Shown piece by piece: positions 1,778 through 64,000 of a stretch of DNA of 64,000 bases (position 1 is the first letter of the stretch; every line of letters begins with the position of its first letter). The position numbers and the translations under genes were made by a program. Source of the stretch: Leptolyngbya sp. FACHB-60. Lineage in GTDB: Bacteria > Cyanobacteriota > Cyanobacteriia > Phormidesmidales > Phormidesmidaceae. The notes under the pieces are model-generated. The model saw only the letters and a program-made list of their open reading frames with translations. It ran no database searches and had not been told where the DNA came from. The DNA lies in assembly GCF_014695775.1 (NCBI RefSeq), contig NZ_JACJOX010000011.1, forward strand, positions 1 through 64,000, given 5' to 3'.

Positions 1778-1871
1778 TAGGGAAGATGAGGAGGGTGAGG
1801 ATGATGGGGGAGATAATGGGCGTAGCCGCTAACAATGTGGCCGCCCTTCTCCATCTCCTCATCTTCCCTAC
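1777..1871 (+). repeat. Long purine/pyrimidine inverted repeat between two genes
   Basis: GTAGGGAAGATGAGGAG (1777-1793) pairs perfectly with its complement at 1855-1871, leaving a 61-base loop. The left arm starts at the last base of the upstream stop codon. The right arm is a pure C/T tract that continues to the ATG at 1884. It could fold in mRNA and join or separate expression of the two genes. It resembles the pyrimidine leaders near 5.05, 22.2, 41.9 and 60.8 kb. Confidence 0.7.
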
Positions 1872-1883
1872 CCTCATCCCCCC

Positions 1884-4476: not shown

Positions 4477-4959
4477 GTGCTAGACGAGCAAGCTAAGAAA
4501 ACCCTTTTGCGCAAGATTCCCCATGGGCTCTACATCTGTGGTGTTAAAGATGGAGATGACCTCAACGGCTTCACGGCAAGCTGGGTAATGCAGGCCTCCT
4601 TTCAGCCCCCCCTGGTGGTGAACTGCGTCAAAAATGACTCCGCCTCCCACGCCATGGTGAAATCCAGCGGCGTGTTTGCCCTCAGCTTTTTAGAAGCTGG
4701 GCAGAAAGATCTGGCCCAAAACTTCTTTAAACCCTTGCGCCGGGTGGGCAACAAGTTTGAAGACATCGAGTTTTACCCTGGCCCTGAAACCGGCTGCCCC
4801 ATCATTAAAGACACCCTTGGCTATGTGGAATGTCGGGTGGTGGGCGCTGTAGAGCACGGTGACCACACGGTGTTTGTGGGCGAAGTGGTCGGTGCTGCCA
4901 TTCACCGCGAAGGCGACCCCCTCCTGCTCGAAAGCACCGGCTGGAACTATGGCGGGTAG
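4477..4959 (+). CDS. Flavin reductase-like FMN-binding protein
   Basis: A 160-residue single-domain protein of the flavin reductase-like (FMN-binding split barrel) family. The segments NGFTASWVMQASFQPPLVV (30-48) and HTVFVGEVV near residue 130 are the usual flavin-binding strands. Close relatives form the C-terminal domain of cyanobacterial diflavin flavoproteins; here the domain stands alone. Expected activity is NAD(P)H-dependent flavin reduction or flavin-based electron transfer; the substrate is unknown. The start is GTG at 4477; no ATG is available near the conserved N-terminus. The gene ends just before the first hairpin-plus-pyrimidine leader. Confidence 0.85.
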   Translation: MLDEQAKKTLLRKIPHGLYICGVKDGDDLNGFTASWVMQASFQPPLVVNCVKNDSASHAMVKSSGVFALSFLEAGQKDLAQNFFKPLRRVGNKFEDIEFYPGPETGCPIIKDTLGYVECRVVGAVEHGDHTVFVGEVVGAAIHREGDPLLLESTGWNYGG

Positions 4960-4970
4960 ATAGGTTGATG

Positions 4971-5038
4971 AGTTTTAAGTTCTCAGTTTTGAGTGTTGAG
5001 TTGTAGCAGTAAAGCTTAAATTCACACTCAAAACTCTT
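4971..5038 (+). repeat. AGTTTTGAGTT/AACTCAAAACT hairpin repeat, copy 1
   Basis: A direct arm (GAGTTTTAAGTT, CAGTTTTGAGTGTTGAGTT) is followed by the complementary arm (CACTCAAAACTC), making a long imperfect stem-loop. Related copies lie at 22208-22284, 60798-60873 and 62640-62714. Right after it comes a pyrimidine-rich tract (5036-5093) that runs into the ATG at 5094. Confidence 0.75.
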
Positions 5039-5093
5039 CTCACTCCCCATCTCTCCCACCCGCCCCATCTTCCTCACTCCCTACACCACACCC

Positions 5094-5447
5094 ATGCCTC
5101 TGATCAAAGTCCAAACATCTGTCTCCTCTCCCGACAAGGCCGAGGTCGAAGGGCTACTAAAGGAGCTTTCCGCCAGTTTGGCCAGCCACTTGGGCAAGCC
5201 AGAATCCTACGTGATGACGGCTTTTGAAGCCAACATACCCATGACCTTTGGCGGTACTACAGAGCCCGTGTGCTACGTCGAGATCAAAAGCGTGGGCACT
5301 ATGGGTAGTGCCAAAACCCGAGCTATGAGCGAGGAGTTTTGCACCCAGCTTGAGACCGCTCTGGGAGTAGCCAAAAATCGTACCTATATCGAGTTTGCCG
5401 ATGCCCCTGGTGCCATGTGGGGCTGGAACGGCGGCACCTTTGGCTAA
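5094..5447 (+). CDS. MIF-like phenylpyruvate tautomerase
   Basis: A 117-residue protein of the macrophage migration inhibitory factor / tautomerase superfamily. It starts Met-Pro, and the N-terminal proline exposed after Met removal is the catalytic base in this family. Lys35 and the C-terminal MWGWNGGTFG agree with MIF-type members. Expected reaction is keto-enol tautomerisation of phenylpyruvate or similar compounds; its role in cyanobacteria is unknown. The ATG follows a long C/T-rich leader without a Shine-Dalgarno sequence. The dnaX gene converges on it 90 bases downstream. Confidence 0.88.
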   Translation: MPLIKVQTSVSSPDKAEVEGLLKELSASLASHLGKPESYVMTAFEANIPMTFGGTTEPVCYVEIKSVGTMGSAKTRAMSEEFCTQLETALGVAKNRTYIEFADAPGAMWGWNGGTFG

Positions 5448-11496: not shown

Positions 11497-13695
11497 TTGA
11501 AACGCGTAGTTCCCCAAGAGTCTGAAGCTGATTGCCTGCCCTCTAGTTTGAGCAGCGCTCAATCTGAGACTTCAGGAGGTTATCGTCGAGTGCAAACCTC
11601 GGCAGCCATGCTGGGCCTAGCCCTATCTTTCGGAGCGTCTGCTCCGTTTCTCACAGAGCCAGAATTAGCCCTAGCTGCCGATGGCCCTAACCTAACGGTG
11701 TTACCTGCGGCGAAGCGAGATCAATCTCCGACGCCCAAGTTGGTGTCCGCTGAGACAACCTCATCCTCGGCTTATCACACCGTTGAATCAGGTGAAAGCC
11801 TCTGGAAAATTGCTGCCCAGCACGAGGCCGATGTTCAAGCCATTAAGGTGGCTAACGGCATTGCTGGAGACGATGTATTACGGGTTGGGCAGGTTATTCG
11901 GGTTCCTGCCGTAGGCATGGCCAGTTTGACTGTTAGCGCTGACGTCTCTCGTTTGGCTCTCAAAGCCGGTGTCGCTGGAGGCGTTGGTGGTGATTTAGCA
12001 ACGGCTAGCAGCCTGTTACCCTCCCACGACATACCTTCAGCGGATGAGCTAGAAAAAACTTGGCAGTTAGAAGAGACTCTGGCTCTCACGAGTGAAGATG
12101 AGCTATCTGAAGCAGATCTCGCTGCGGCTAACCTAGACAAATTTTCCTCAGAAGAGCTTGAGAGTAGCGCTAGCGGCAGCATCTCCTCACTCCCCCTGGC
12201 TGCCCTCCCTACCCTTGAACAAGAGGCTATCCAGGAGCCTGCAGCAGCTCCGGTCGCCGACGATCAGCCAGCCGCCGCCAGCCAGCAAATAGCCAGGGTT
12301 GACGAGGTAGCTAGTGCAACGGCCGAACCAGTTGAGTCCTTTGCTAGTTTGCCGCTCTACGAGGCAAGCGAACAGCCGGTTGCTACCGCTCAGACGCCAC
12401 GACCCGTTGCTGCTGCCAGCACTCTAGCTCCGGAAACTGCCAGCACCTTAGTTAGCACTCTAGCTCCAGAAACTGCCAGCACCTCAGTTGCAGAGAGCAA
12501 GAAAGATTTCACCGTAGCGGCGCTGCCTCCACTAACGTCTGCGGCGACTTCAACCGCTGAAGTTGGTACTGTACGGTCCTACCAGGTAAAGCCGGGCGAC
12601 ACCCTATGGTCAATTACCTCTCGCAACGGCCTCACCCTAGATGAGCTTCTCAGCCATAACAACGCTGTCAACCAGCCTGAAGCTCTATCTGTCGGCGACA
12701 GCCTGAGCATTCCCTTAGCCTCAGCGACGGAAGAAGCGGTTGGCCTATCCTCCAGCGGTTTGGCAGCGGCTCCTAGGACCCGTGAGCAGGCCATTCGCGA
12801 CCACTTGTCCCGCATTCGTGAGTCAAATAGCAGCCAGGTTAACCGCGACGCACTCAATGCGCGAATTCGTGAAGCTCGTCAAGAGCTTGAGCGCAGCCGT
12901 GTCACCAATGCAGCTCCAGCAACTGTCGCTCTGGAGTACCATAGCCCTGAGCCAGTAGCTGTAGCTTCCAGCGCAGTGGGTGGCTCTGAACCTGCTAGCG
13001 CAACAGCTCTAGCCTCTAGGGAGGGTGCCCAAACCCTTGTGTCGTCTGCTGCTGATGCCGAGTGGACAGTGACCGATGCTGCCAAAGACCAGGTGCAGCC
13101 GATCGCTACTGCCCTGAATCCAGCAGTTGAGGCCGTGGTTGATGAGCCTGTGCAGGTAGATGCCGCAGCTCCTCTTAGTCAGCTGCTGGCAGCTGCTCCC
13201 CTGGGTGCTGATGCTTATCGGGTTGCGCCGAGCATGCATGTTGGGCAGACCGTATCTCCCAACATGCCGATGATGCCGGGTGCCAACGAGTTTTTACCCG
13301 AAGCACCTCGTCTTTCCAACGGCTATGTTTGGCCTGCCCGTGGCACCCTGACGTCTGGCTACGGCTGGCGTTGGGGCCGCATGCACCGCGGTGTTGACAT
13401 CGCCGGGCCAGTCGGGACTCCGATTGTGGCGGCAGCGCCGGGTGTTGTCGCGCGATCGGGTTGGAATTCCGGTGGCTACGGCAACCTGGTAGATATTCGT
13501 CACGCCGACGGTAGCCTGACCCGCTATGCCCACAACAGCCGTTTACTGGTGCGTGAGGGTGAACAGGTGCGCCAGGGACAGCAGATCGCTGAGATGGGCA
13601 GCACAGGCTACAGTACCGGGCCTCACCTTCACTTTGAGGTGCATTTGCCTAGCAGCGGTACCGTCAATCCCATGGCCTTTCTGCCCGATCGCTAG
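11497..13695 (+). CDS. LysM / M23 murein endopeptidase
   Basis: A 732-residue exported cell-wall hydrolase. Order: a hydrophobic export segment (about 36-60), LysM 1 (93-137, YHTVESGESLWKIAAQHEAD), a long Ala/Ser/Glu-rich linker holding a short internal duplication (TLAPETAST twice), LysM 2 (about 363-407, YQVKPGDTLWSITSRNG), a second linker, and a C-terminal M23 domain with HRGVDIAGP and HLHFEVH as zinc ligands. LysM modules bind peptidoglycan; M23 enzymes cut its cross-bridges. The start is a TTG at 11497, fixed by a perfect AGGAGGT six bases upstream. The very long leader suggests post-transcriptional control. Confidence 0.92.
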   Translation: MKRVVPQESEADCLPSSLSSAQSETSGGYRRVQTSAAMLGLALSFGASAPFLTEPELALAADGPNLTVLPAAKRDQSPTPKLVSAETTSSSAYHTVESGESLWKIAAQHEADVQAIKVANGIAGDDVLRVGQVIRVPAVGMASLTVSADVSRLALKAGVAGGVGGDLATASSLLPSHDIPSADELEKTWQLEETLALTSEDELSEADLAAANLDKFSSEELESSASGSISSLPLAALPTLEQEAIQEPAAAPVADDQPAAASQQIARVDEVASATAEPVESFASLPLYEASEQPVATAQTPRPVAAASTLAPETASTLVSTLAPETASTSVAESKKDFTVAALPPLTSAATSTAEVGTVRSYQVKPGDTLWSITSRNGLTLDELLSHNNAVNQPEALSVGDSLSIPLASATEEAVGLSSSGLAAAPRTREQAIRDHLSRIRESNSSQVNRDALNARIREARQELERSRVTNAAPATVALEYHSPEPVAVASSAVGGSEPASATALASREGAQTLVSSAADAEWTVTDAAKDQVQPIATALNPAVEAVVDEPVQVDAAAPLSQLLAAAPLGADAYRVAPSMHVGQTVSPNMPMMPGANEFLPEAPRLSNGYVWPARGTLTSGYGWRWGRMHRGVDIAGPVGTPIVAAAPGVVARSGWNSGGYGNLVDIRHADGSLTRYAHNSRLLVREGEQVRQGQQIAEMGSTGYSTGPHLHFEVHLPSSGTVNPMAFLPDR

Positions 13696-41138: not shown

Positions 41139-41188
41139 GTGGCGGGGTGGATGGGTGATGGGGTGGATAGATGAACCCAAAGCAACCC

Positions 41189-41330
41189 GTAGGGTGGGCA
41201 ATGCCCACCATTTCACCGCGCCTTCGCACAGGCTAACTCTGCCCCCGACCTTAGCTACTTGCCCATTCATTGAAGCGCGAAGGGATATCAGCTAACCGCT
41301 AAGGACATAGGTGGGCATTGCCCACCCTAC
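41189..41330. mobile_element. MITE-like element between cynD and cynS
   Basis: The left end GTAGGGTGGGCA...TGCCCACC (41189-41209) and the right end (41310-41330) are perfect inverted copies of 21 bases, and each end is itself nearly palindromic. The total is 142 bases with no reading frame. A further single end copy lies at 63215-63235. I see no clear target duplication. Confidence 0.55.
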
Positions 41331-41375
41331 CGGCATCACTGTTTGACTAAACGACGTAATTAAGAGGATCCAAAC

Positions 41376-41852: not shown

Positions 41853-41876
41853 GGCTGTTGGCGATCGCCGACAGCC
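41853..41876. terminator. Palindrome after cynS built around a HIP1 site
   Basis: GGCTGT-TGGCGATCGCCG-ACAGCC is an almost perfect 24-base palindrome centred on GCGATCGC, followed by TTTC. It may act as a weak terminator between cynS and the DUF1348 gene. Confidence 0.45.
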
Positions 41877-41967
41877 TTTCCTGTACCCTCCCTTTTCGTT
41901 TTTCGTTCTCCCTACCTCCCCCACCGACATCTCCCCACTCCCTATCCACCCCTCACCCCTCACCCCT

Positions 41968-42435
41968 ATGCCCACGCCCGTCGTCCCCCCCTTTACGCTA
42001 GAGACCGCGATCGCCAAGGCCCGCATGGCCGAAGACGCCTGGAATAGCCGCGACCCCGATCGCGTTGCCCTCGCCTACACCGAAGACAGCCACTGGCGCA
42101 ACCGGGCCGAAATCTTCCAGGGCCGCGACGCCATCCGCGCTTTTTTGCGCCGCAAGTGGGATAAAGAACTCGACTACCGCCTGATCAAAGAAGTGTGGGC
42201 CTTTGGCGACAACCGCATTTCGGTACGCTTTCAGTATGAGTGGCACGATGACGGCGGCCAGTGGTATCGCGCCTACGGCAACGAAAACTGGGAGTTCGAC
42301 GAAAACGGCCTCATGCGCCGCCGCGAAGCCAGCATCAACGATCGCCCCATCACCCCTGAAGAACGCCGCTTCTTCTGGGATGCCTCTGGTCCTCGCCCGC
42401 AGGATCATCCAGGGCTAACCGATTCGCCGGTTTAG
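41968..42435 (+). CDS. DUF1348 / NTF2-like small protein
   Basis: A 155-residue protein of the SnoaL/NTF2-like superfamily, DUF1348 type: [34 protein letters not shown], and the Trp/Arg-rich [26 protein letters not shown]-type centre. Such cone-shaped folds bind small molecules or act as enzymes; no activity is known for this one. It follows cynS by 148 bases on the same strand, preceded by a long pyrimidine-rich tract without a Shine-Dalgarno sequence. A link to cyanate use is inferred only from position. Confidence 0.85.
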
Positions 42436-60761: not shown

Positions 60762-60797
60762 GGGGAGCGGGGATGTGGGAAAGATGAGGGAGATGGG

Positions 60798-60873
60798 GAG
60801 TTTGAGTGTTTAGTTTTGAGTTCTGGACTCTAGCTTTAATTCAAAACTCAAAATTCAAAACTGAAAACTTTTC
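60798..60873 (-). repeat. AGTTTTGAGTT/AACTCAAAACT hairpin repeat, copy 3
   Basis: AGTTTGAGTGTTTAGTTTTG... faces AATTCAAAACTCAAAATTC. On the minus strand it precedes a C/T-rich leader (60762-60797) and the exosortase ATG at 60761, the same order as copies 1 and 2. Confidence 0.75.
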
Positions 60874-60874
60874 T

Positions 60875-62071
60875 TCACCCATTCACGGCTTGCAAAACAC
60901 CGACAGCTCTAGCGGCGGTGACTGCTTCAACCATAGCGTCTACGACGTAATCGACCTGCTCTAGAGTCATACCGGGGTACATCGGCAAGGAGAGAATCTC
61001 TTGGCTGAGGGCTTCGGCCTGGGGAAAGCTGCCGGGGCCATAGCCGAGGGCACTAAAGGCGGGTTGCAGATGGCAGGGGATGGGATAGTGGATGCCGGTT
61101 TGCACGCCAGCGGCGGCAAGCTGCGCCTGGAGGTTAGCACGATGGAGGGGGCAAGTAGCCGTAATGCGCACGACGTATAGGTGGTAGATATGGCCAGGGC
61201 CAGCGTCGTTGTGCATGGGGAGAATGCCGTGCTCAACTAGAGGGGCGAGACGGCGATCGTAGTGCTGGGCGATCGCATAGCGAGCCTGATTCCACCCCGG
61301 CAAATGGGGCAGTTTGACGTTGAGCACAGCGGCTTGCAGGGTGTCTAACCGGCTGTTGGTGCCCTGGGGTTCGGTGTGATAGTACTTGCTGGTGGCACCG
61401 TAATTGCGCAGCGATCGCGCCGTCTCCGCAATCAGCTTGTCTCCTGTGACAAACATGCCCCCATCGCCTAACGCACCAAGATTCTTGCTAGGGTAAAAGC
61501 TAAAGGCCGCCCCTAAACCGATGGTGCCGGCGGTGTAGCCCTCGTGCTGGGCCAGGTGGGCCTGGGCCGCATCTTCAAAAATTATCAGCCGGTGGCGGTT
61601 GGCCAAATTCAGCAGTCCGTGGGGCGAAACCATTTGGCCGTAGAGGTGTACAGGCACAATGGCGCGAGTGCGAGGGGTGATGGCGCGCTCGACAGCATCG
61701 AGATCCATGAGAGCGGTGGCGCGATCGCAGTCCACAAACACAGGCGTTGCCCCCGACCGCAGCACCCCCATCAGCGTCGCTACAAAGGTATTGGCGGGCA
61801 AAATCACCTCATCGCCGGGGGCAACGCCGCAGGCAATCAGACCCAGGGCGATCGCATCGGTGCCGCAACCTACCCCTACCCCAAACTGGGTGCCGCAGAC
61901 CAAGGCAAAGTTCGACTCAAAGTCGGCCAATGCCGGGCCCAGCACAAAGTCTCCCTGGGCGATGACGGCATTAATTACCCCCTGAATAGTTTCCTGCAAC
62001 GGCCCATGCTGCCAGGTCAAATCGACAAACGGAACCGCCAAAGGAGCTGCCAGTGGAGAAGGGATGGTCAT
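60875..62071 (-). CDS. DegT/DnrJ/EryC1/StrS family aminotransferase
   Basis: A 398-residue PLP enzyme that aminates keto-sugar nucleotides. VPFVDLTWQ N-terminus, VGVGCGTDAIALGLIA, DCDRATALMD, VHLYGQMV, DAAQAHLAQHEG, and the PLP lysine in SFYPSKNLGALGDGG. These are all standard. ATG 62071 has AGGTGA upstream; GTG 62077 is an alternative. It is followed, after about 110 bases and repeat copy 3, by the exosortase on the same strand, which suggests a shared role in exopolysaccharide or glycoprotein assembly. Confidence 0.92.
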   Translation of the reverse strand: MTIPSPLAAPLAVPFVDLTWQHGPLQETIQGVINAVIAQGDFVLGPALADFESNFALVCGTQFGVGVGCGTDAIALGLIACGVAPGDEVILPANTFVATLMGVLRSGATPVFVDCDRATALMDLDAVERAITPRTRAIVPVHLYGQMVSPHGLLNLANRHRLIIFEDAAQAHLAQHEGYTAGTIGLGAAFSFYPSKNLGALGDGGMFVTGDKLIAETARSLRNYGATSKYYHTEPQGTNSRLDTLQAAVLNVKLPHLPGWNQARYAIAQHYDRRLAPLVEHGILPMHNDAGPGHIYHLYVVRITATCPLHRANLQAQLAAAGVQTGIHYPIPCHLQPAFSALGYGPGSFPQAEALSQEILSLPMYPGMTLEQVDYVVDAMVEAVTAARAVGVLQAVNG

Positions 62072-62289: not shown

Positions 62290-62634
62290 ATGGATTTTGA
62301 AACCTCTCGCGAATTTGTCGTCCGCCAAACCCTCGGCACCAGAGAAGACCTGCCCGATACCTTTATCGCCTGCCTGCGCCAGGGCAAACCGCCCGTACCG
62401 GGGCAGGTCACCTCTCTGCTGCTCGCCCTCAAAGCCCTGTTTGAAGGCCTAAAGAACGAGCCCACCCTCGATCGCACCCTCACGCAAGCCCTCTTCATTC
62501 TCTCTTACGAAAGCCGCCAGCTCTACGCCCAGGGGCAGAAGGCTGGCGTTGTGTGGCCACCGCTGCTTGATGAAGACCTAGGGCGAATTGGCAAGGCGGC
62601 GCAGTCGATTGTGTTTGGCGAGTGGCAAGGGTGA
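62290..62634 (+). CDS. Conserved-type small protein of unknown function
   Basis: A 114-residue, mostly helical soluble protein. FETSREFVVRQTLGTRED, PVPGQVTSLLLALKALFEGL, ALFILSYESRQLYAQGQKA and WPPLLDEDLGRI look like the signature of a small cyanobacterial family, but I cannot name a function. It stands divergent from the aminotransferase gene and ends just before repeat copy 4. No ribosome binding site is evident at the ATG. Confidence 0.7.
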   Translation: MDFETSREFVVRQTLGTREDLPDTFIACLRQGKPPVPGQVTSLLLALKALFEGLKNEPTLDRTLTQALFILSYESRQLYAQGQKAGVVWPPLLDEDLGRIGKAAQSIVFGEWQG

Positions 62635-62639
62635 AAGAA

Positions 62640-62714
62640 AGTTTTGAGTTTTGAATGTTGAGTTTTTAATTAGGGCTGGGGCCTAGAACTCAAAACTAAG
62701 AACTCAAAACTTTT
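62640..62714 (+). repeat. AGTTTTGAGTT/AACTCAAAACT hairpin repeat, copy 4
   Basis: AGTTTTGAGTTTTGAATG faces AACTCAAAACTAAGAACTC. A short TTTTCCCTCTCTTG follows, then the K-box of the groES promoter. Here no long pyrimidine leader is present. Confidence 0.75.
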
Positions 62715-62828: not shown

Positions 62829-62875
62829 CGCGTCTCGATTCAAACATTCACTAAGCAAACCTTTGGAGGTACATT

Positions 62876-63187
62876 ATGGCCGCAGTCACCCTGAGTGTAT
62901 CTACTGTGAAGCCTCTGGGCGATCGCATTTTGGTCAAAGTCAGCGAAGCCGAAGAAAAAACTGCTGGCGGCATTTTGCTACCCGACACCGCTAAGGAAAA
63001 GCCCCAGGTGGGTGAAGTGGTGCAGGTTGGCCCCGGCAAGCGCGATGACAACGGCTCGTTCCAGCCGGTGGAAGTCAAAGTCGGCGACAAGGTGCTCTAC
63101 TCCAAGTACGCCGGTACCGACATCAAGCTTGGCACTGACGACTACGTGCTGCTGCGCGAGTCCGACATTCTGGCTGCCCTCGGCTAG
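62876..63187 (+). CDS. groES: Co-chaperonin GroES
   Basis: A 103-residue Hsp10. [20 protein letters not shown] (18-37), GILLPDTA mobile-loop region and KYAGTDIKL near residue 85 are standard. It caps the GroEL ring with ATP. ATG 62876 has GGAGGT 5 bases upstream. Transcription should be controlled by the CIRCE operator and K-box upstream. Confidence 0.98.

Positions 63188-64000
<813 letters not shown>

Follow-up and report, generated by a model that had tools for sequence, protein, structure and literature searches.

Stop-anchored heptamer palindromes with pyrimidine-rich flanks probably form a family of dispersed spacer repeats in Leptolyngbya sp. FACHB-60

The hairpin and C/T-rich tract that precede three unrelated genes in Leptolyngbya sp. 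FACHB-60 are probably members of one family of dispersed spacer repeats and not a leader device, a reading to which we assign a probability of roughly two in three. A full copy is built of imperfect 7-nt units arranged as (AGTTTTG)n, a variable loop and (CAAAACT)n, with a purine-rich flank on the 5' side and a pyrimidine-rich flank on the 3' side. The palindromes are anchored to the upstream stop codon and are nearly absent from the gaps between divergent genes.

We analysed a window of 64,000 nucleotides, which is the whole stretch examined here, within a genome of 5.9 Mb in 84 contigs (estimated contamination 5.5%). A first-pass annotation had reported a hairpin followed by a C/T tract at three places in this window, and all three are present where it had put them:

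4957-4959, plus strand: stop codon TAG of the flavin-reductase gene, the anchor of the MIF-site hairpin; gene and stop are conserved in congeners.
4971-5035, plus strand: heptamer palindrome of the MIF site, with a 5' arm of the AGTTTTG type and a 3' arm of the CAAAACT type; MFE -29.8 kcal/mol with flanks, z -4.5.
5036-5093, plus strand: pyrimidine-rich 3' flank of the MIF site, reaching the MIF-like ATG at 5094; its last 40 nt are 80% C/T, with 1 G.
22208-22279, minus strand: heptamer palindrome of the RND site, separating the gene of the HlyD-type adaptor, whose stop is at 22284-22286 (minus), from that of the RND permease.
22165-22207, minus strand: pyrimidine-rich 3' flank of the RND site, reaching the RND permease ATG (22164).
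60805-60869, minus strand: heptamer palindrome of the exosortase site, separating the gene of the DegT-type aminotransferase, whose stop is at 60875-60877 (minus), from that of the exosortase.
60762-60804, minus strand: pyrimidine-rich 3' flank of the exosortase site, reaching the exosortase ATG (60761).

The order is the same at each site: a stop codon, 4-11 nt, a palindrome of 65-72 nt, a pyrimidine-rich stretch of 43-58 nt and the ATG. The hairpins are of the AGTTTTGAGTT/AACTCAAAACT type, made of imperfect heptamers. The genes that follow encode a MIF-like protein, an RND permease of the AcrB type and an exosortase; the best relatives of the exosortase come from Nodosilinea and Phormidium tenue genomes, so the window probably derives from Nodosilinea or a very close neighbour. 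The preceding genes, in the same orientation, encode a flavin reductase, a HlyD-type adaptor and a DegT-type aminotransferase. As had been claimed, no Shine-Dalgarno (SD)-like sequence was found before the starts of the MIF-like, RND permease and exosortase genes (3/3 sites). The tract had also been described as almost purely C/T; it is indeed pyrimidine-rich, but at the MIF and RND sites C/T reaches only about 80% over the final 40 nt, the breaks being mainly A with 1-2 G. All four palindromes of the window, including the further copy described below, fold better than dinucleotide shuffles, and for the RNAs of the MIF, RND and exosortase sites the z values are -4.5, -2.6 and -3.0. First-order Markov simulations of the window gave no such hairpin in 60 runs, against the four observed, which speaks against chance low complexity, the simpler alternative that had been offered.

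Hairpin and tract also occur apart in the window. One palindrome, absent from the first-pass list, lacks the tract, and two tracts lack the hairpin:

62640-62711, plus strand: fourth copy of the palindrome, 5 nt past the stop of ORF 62290-62634 and lacking a pyrimidine tract that reaches the next start; z -5.1.
1778-1883, plus strand: inverted purine/pyrimidine spacer without AGTTTTG heptamers; its purine tract follows the stop at 1775-1777 and its pyrimidine tract (1844-1883) runs into the ATG at 1884.
41875-41967, plus strand: pyrimidine-rich leader without a heptamer hairpin, preceding the ATG at 41968.

Thus, the two parts dissociate even within one window. The gene next after the fourth palindrome, at 62876, has an SD sequence (GGAGGT at 62865-62870), and the palindrome at this site is also found in the congener G024 (L168). 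The window holds further repeats. A GC-rich spacer palindrome of another kind, composed of inverted repeats of CCCGTAGGGTGGGCAATGCCCACC, lies at 41186-41333 and 63211-63235, and related strings occur in the congener spacers L150 and L151. At 18880-18921, directly downstream of the end of the RND permease gene (18940, minus), a TTTT run accompanies a perfect inverted repeat of 20 bp whose loop is 2 nt long; this is possibly a terminator, unlike the heptamer palindrome. Finally, a 36-nt tandem duplication (12418-12489, 94% identical) lies within ORF 11497-13695.

For the position of the palindromes in the genome as a whole, we used 43 regions around pattern matches, with genes called by a simple codon-usage caller of our own; the resulting census of 42 complete copies is a sample from those matches and not a complete count. 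Twenty-eight copies lay between co-directional genes, 13 (31%) between convergent genes and one between divergent genes, and this convergent to divergent ratio of 13:1 compares with 26:44 in control spacers of the same regions (p=0.0002). The co-directional copies began a median of 5.5 nt past the upstream stop and ended a median of 44.5 nt before the next start. They were nearer to the stop than to the start in 26/28 cases and no more than 15 nt from the stop in 23/28 (82%), and their end came within 20 nt of the start in only 2/28. The stop codon fell inside the element in 6 of 41 copies. Thirty-one regions from four congeners gave medians of 4 nt from the stop and 56 nt from the start, with 20/21 co-directional copies nearer to the stop and 17/21 within 15 nt of it, although this check is not fully independent, as several of the sites are orthologous and the two samples overlap in part. 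The short distance to the stop and the rarity of palindromes close to a start indicate that the element has its anchor where the upstream gene ends.

Running into a start codon, the 3' flank contained C at.47, T at.25, A at.19 and G at.10; running into the stop of a converging gene, it contained C at.49, T at.27, A at.17 and G at.07. The 5' flank was the complement of the 3' flank (G.34-.41, C.08-.13). Over the first 25 nt of the 3' flank, C/T amounted to 77% toward starts and 73% toward converging stops (p=0.40). Since the composition is alike in both settings, the C/T tract belongs to the element. Moreover, a palindrome with purines on its 5' side and pyrimidines on its 3' side reads alike on both strands, so that a constant orientation is automatic; the same orientation relative to the gene, to which the first-pass annotation had drawn attention, is therefore true of the three sites but uninformative. 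It had further looked to other copies for a bias in orientation or in relation to start codons, and here the outcome is split: there is no real orientation bias, yet the distance to starts does have an effect. The 3' flank was 44.5 nt long before starts and 16 nt before converging stops (p=2e-7), and long C/T tracts stood before starts in 14/28 hairpin spacers compared to 5/79 control spacers (p=2e-6), a concentration that would be compatible with positive selection on the leader. The longer flank before starts results in low structure around the start codon, with a median folding energy of -1.7 kcal/mol in hairpin spacers and -9.0 kcal/mol in control spacers (p=2e-5). Weak structure is known to compensate for a missing SD in cyanobacteria (PMC6847405, PMC5397173), and the weak start structure observed here fits this compensation, with no need for a tract-specific factor.

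Among 65 genomes of the family, 18 contain the strict palindrome pattern, with the matches clustered in one part of the genus. Within a Nodosilinea subclade, copies are inherited at fixed positions and change by gain and loss of units: the palindrome occupies the same place at the MIF site (7-8 genomes), the RND site (8 genomes) and the exosortase site, and the orthologues differ in heptamer number and have quite different C/T letters. Many of the sampled congener copies likewise lie at sites orthologous to those of the FACHB-60 genome (G000). In genomes outside the subclade, different repeats occupy these spacers, for example GGATGGGTAGATGGG behind the stop and CCCATCCACCCATCC ahead of the start codon. 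At the RND site a C/T-rich leader persists in most congeners despite the missing hairpin, and at the MIF site several have neither tract nor hairpin. Among the orthologous spacers no clean empty site was seen; where the palindrome is missing, the sequence is unrelated or repeated in a different way. Two side observations concern these spacers. At the RND site, L143, L145, L146 and L140, which have no AGTTTTG palindrome, open with purine arrays (GTAGGCGAGTAGGC, GATGGGTGGATGGG) immediately behind the stop and end in complementary-looking pyrimidine arrays before the start. In the spacer before the MIF gene of G026 (L052, ~1200-1500), a MITE-like insertion of ~150 bp with inverted ends of the TTCAGCAACGCC type breaks the 3' part of the heptamer palindrome.

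Three of the pattern matches fell inside genes. In proteins that we take to be GcvP, CobA-HemD and CobN, by recognition of their sequences, interdomain linkers across the genus contain in-frame heptamer strings followed by pyrimidine tracts. In the subclade these heptamers are read on the stop-free CAAAACT strand with only one arm present, and the CobN linker has the full order of purine tract, heptamers and pyrimidine tract. As no translation initiation is expected within protein linkers, the composite order is no adaptation to a role as leader. Heptamer strings also have a second short repeat, TCTCCnnnGGAGACGCTACGCGAACA, repeatedly nested inside or beside them, including in frame in coding linkers (L026:2507-2600, L020:2520-2600, the L041 loop at 2491-2594, and the GcvP linkers of L237, L240, L241 and L244).

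We compared word use across 26 genomes at five sites unrelated to one another: the MIF and RND sites, chosen by the first-pass annotation, and the three linkers, ascertained through heptamers of the FACHB-60 genome. Different sites shared 9-mers at.066 when they belonged to one genome and at.026 when they came from different genomes (permutation p<=0.0005). Because the sites were ascertained through the repeat in FACHB-60, we repeated the test without this genome (.062 vs.025), and the values were.039 vs.014 without any strict-palindrome genome. Sharing of words within a genome at unrelated sites indicates that the repeat words move or get corrected between sites, and purely local slippage does not by itself explain a heptamer identity common across them. 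The idea that the sequence is copied is thereby borne out, with dozens of copies in the genome. It is possible, and we put it forward tentatively, that trans-acting copying or conversion keeps refilling gene spacers and unstructured protein linkers with the current 7-8 nt word of the genome. Under such a process, orthologous sites would swap their word in concert across the genus (ACTCAAA, ATTCAAA, ATCCAAA, CCCATCCA, CCCGACT) and would retain the reading frame, the strand polarity and, in CobN, the purine-heptamer-pyrimidine order.

Tandem heptanucleotides known as STRR occur in heterocystous cyanobacteria (Calothrix, Anabaena), where the 7-nt units are dispersed, mainly in spacers. Their unit differs from ours and they form direct arrays, whereas here the arrays come as inverted pairs; STRR are mentioned for Calothrix in PMC4692102. 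The same paper describes heptameric repeats, GGGNATC or GGGGA(C/T)T, in spacers of Xanthomonas and Nostoc. The present family resembles the GGGNATC repeats in its 7-nt unit, its bias to spacers, its scarcity between divergent genes, a coding strand that is G-rich after stops and C-rich before starts, its occurrence at the same loci in relatives with varying length, and its presence between operon genes (pecE-pecF in that case) (PMC4692102). Tandem 7-nt units and indels in unit steps were found here both in the unit census and at orthologous sites. In contrast to GGGNATC, the inner unit is A/T-rich (AGTTTTG), the copies are regular palindromes with a loop whose hairpin is tightly anchored to the stop, and the repeat word is common to spacers and protein linkers of one genome. 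We rejected membership of the GGGNATC subtype itself, as the G3-4 unit and G runs that form its quadruplex are missing. The present family is a variant of these Nostoc and Xanthomonas spacer heptamers, palindromic and with an A/T unit.

TAACTGA direct repeats of Beggiatoaceae and cyanobacteria also have a 7-nt unit, located upstream of starts without SD, and a role of ribosomal protein S1 has been suggested for them; they show indels in 7-nt steps between close strains and, in cyanobacteria, are also found in ORFs and between stops (PMC4679880). These repeats are direct, start-proximal in Beggiatoaceae and not palindromic (PMC4679880), whereas the anchor here is the stop. REP/BIME elements of E. 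coli are, as here, extragenic palindromes soon after stops and between converging genes that would fold in mRNA, and REPs within 15 nt of a stop are reported to stall ribosomes (PMC12306157). The present family differs in being built from heptamers and in having arms that do not co-evolve, and inspection of the listed copies revealed no GTAG/CGTC-type REP tag at the stem foot. Mobilisation by a RAYT was rejected: the genome has a single Y1_Tnp gene (PF01797), with no heptamer arm or palindrome near it. The small dispersed repeats of cyanobacteria (Elhai et al. 2008, cited in PMC4390886) are short as well; for our family no defined insertion target was seen, and the short repeat TCTCCnnnGGAGACGCTACGCGAACA is nested beside it. 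Rfam found only a tRNA in the window, and the literal repeat string had no match in the literature searched.

Could the tract nevertheless serve as a functional non-SD leader that recruits the 30S subunit, e.g. via S1, with the hairpin spacing or protecting it? We consider this unlikely. The missing SD, the weakly structured starts, the longer tract before starts than before converging stops, and the C/T-rich leader kept by most congeners at the RND site even without a hairpin would agree with it, as would the S1-dependent, SD-independent initiation reported for rbcS of cyanobacteria (Mutsuda and Sugiura 2006, cited in PMC6847405) and the S1 role suggested for TAACTGA. However, the copies between two stops have the same C-rich flank, which argues that the element is not tied to starts, the same heptamer and tract string lies inside coding linkers, and several congeners have neither part at the MIF site. 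S1 sites are moreover described as U-rich, and the action of S1 in cyanobacterial initiation has been questioned (PMC5397173). The cassette in the 5' UTR proposed by the first-pass annotation is not supported, given the anchoring to stops, the convergent copies with the same flank, the C/T leaders without a hairpin at orthologous RND sites and the heptamer and tract strings in protein linkers. No transposition signature was found, be it a transposase, a duplication scar or a clean empty site.

Selection on a REP-like mRNA element, in which the hairpin after the stop would stabilise the upstream mRNA or stall terminating ribosomes and so lower upstream expression, appears rather improbable. The fraction of co-directional copies within 15 nt of the stop corresponds to the stalling zone reported for E. 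coli, the RNA can fold, and one copy lies inside the adaptor-permease gene pair, probably one operon. Against it, the own arms of the 42 copies pair no better than arms swapped among them (-20.9 vs -21.9 kcal/mol), among orthologues own arms lose to swapped arms at the MIF site and have no more than a slight advantage at the RND site, the G-U asymmetry expected from RNA-level selection was not found (G-U-tolerated changes are not enriched in the 3' arm), and heptamers persist in protein linkers with one arm only. Compensatory change under RNA-hairpin selection was therefore rejected, given that neither arm swaps nor orthologues show co-evolution. These arm tests make a REP-like role at the upstream stop less likely. 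For an intrinsic terminator, or a bidirectional one between converging genes, the odds are poor: the element is anchored to stops, symmetric and frequent between converging genes, and some copies end in ...AACTTTTC, but the stem is A/U-rich and not G+C-rich, the tail is C-rich rather than U-rich, and one copy separates the adaptor and permease genes. A terminator scan gave no match at any copy of the window. Lastly, the tracts are simple in composition and turn over fast between species, as a chance low-complexity tract might, but the simulations and the strong association of tract with hairpin make this scarcely credible.

For the preferred reading, dispersed spacer repeats, we propose that the repeats would grow by polymerase slippage and be spread between sites by rare copying or conversion, while selection would clear coding domains, promoters and the zone of ribosome binding of them. 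The copies that remain would sit close behind stop codons, and their unstructured pyrimidine flank would be longer where a start follows. In the mRNA, the hairpin would form an intercistronic structure after the upstream stop, where REPs act in E. coli, and the pyrimidine flank may passively keep the downstream non-SD start open.

The look of a leader cassette can thus arise from palindromic symmetry together with stop-anchored repeats, and a ribosome-binding function should not be read into such tracts. In this group, the linkers of conserved enzymes such as GcvP, CobN and CobA-HemD are written by repeat DNA. How heptamer repeats spread and homogenise in cyanobacteria is a puzzle long noticed, and the turnover of words across spacers and in-frame linkers makes this spread and homogenisation testable.
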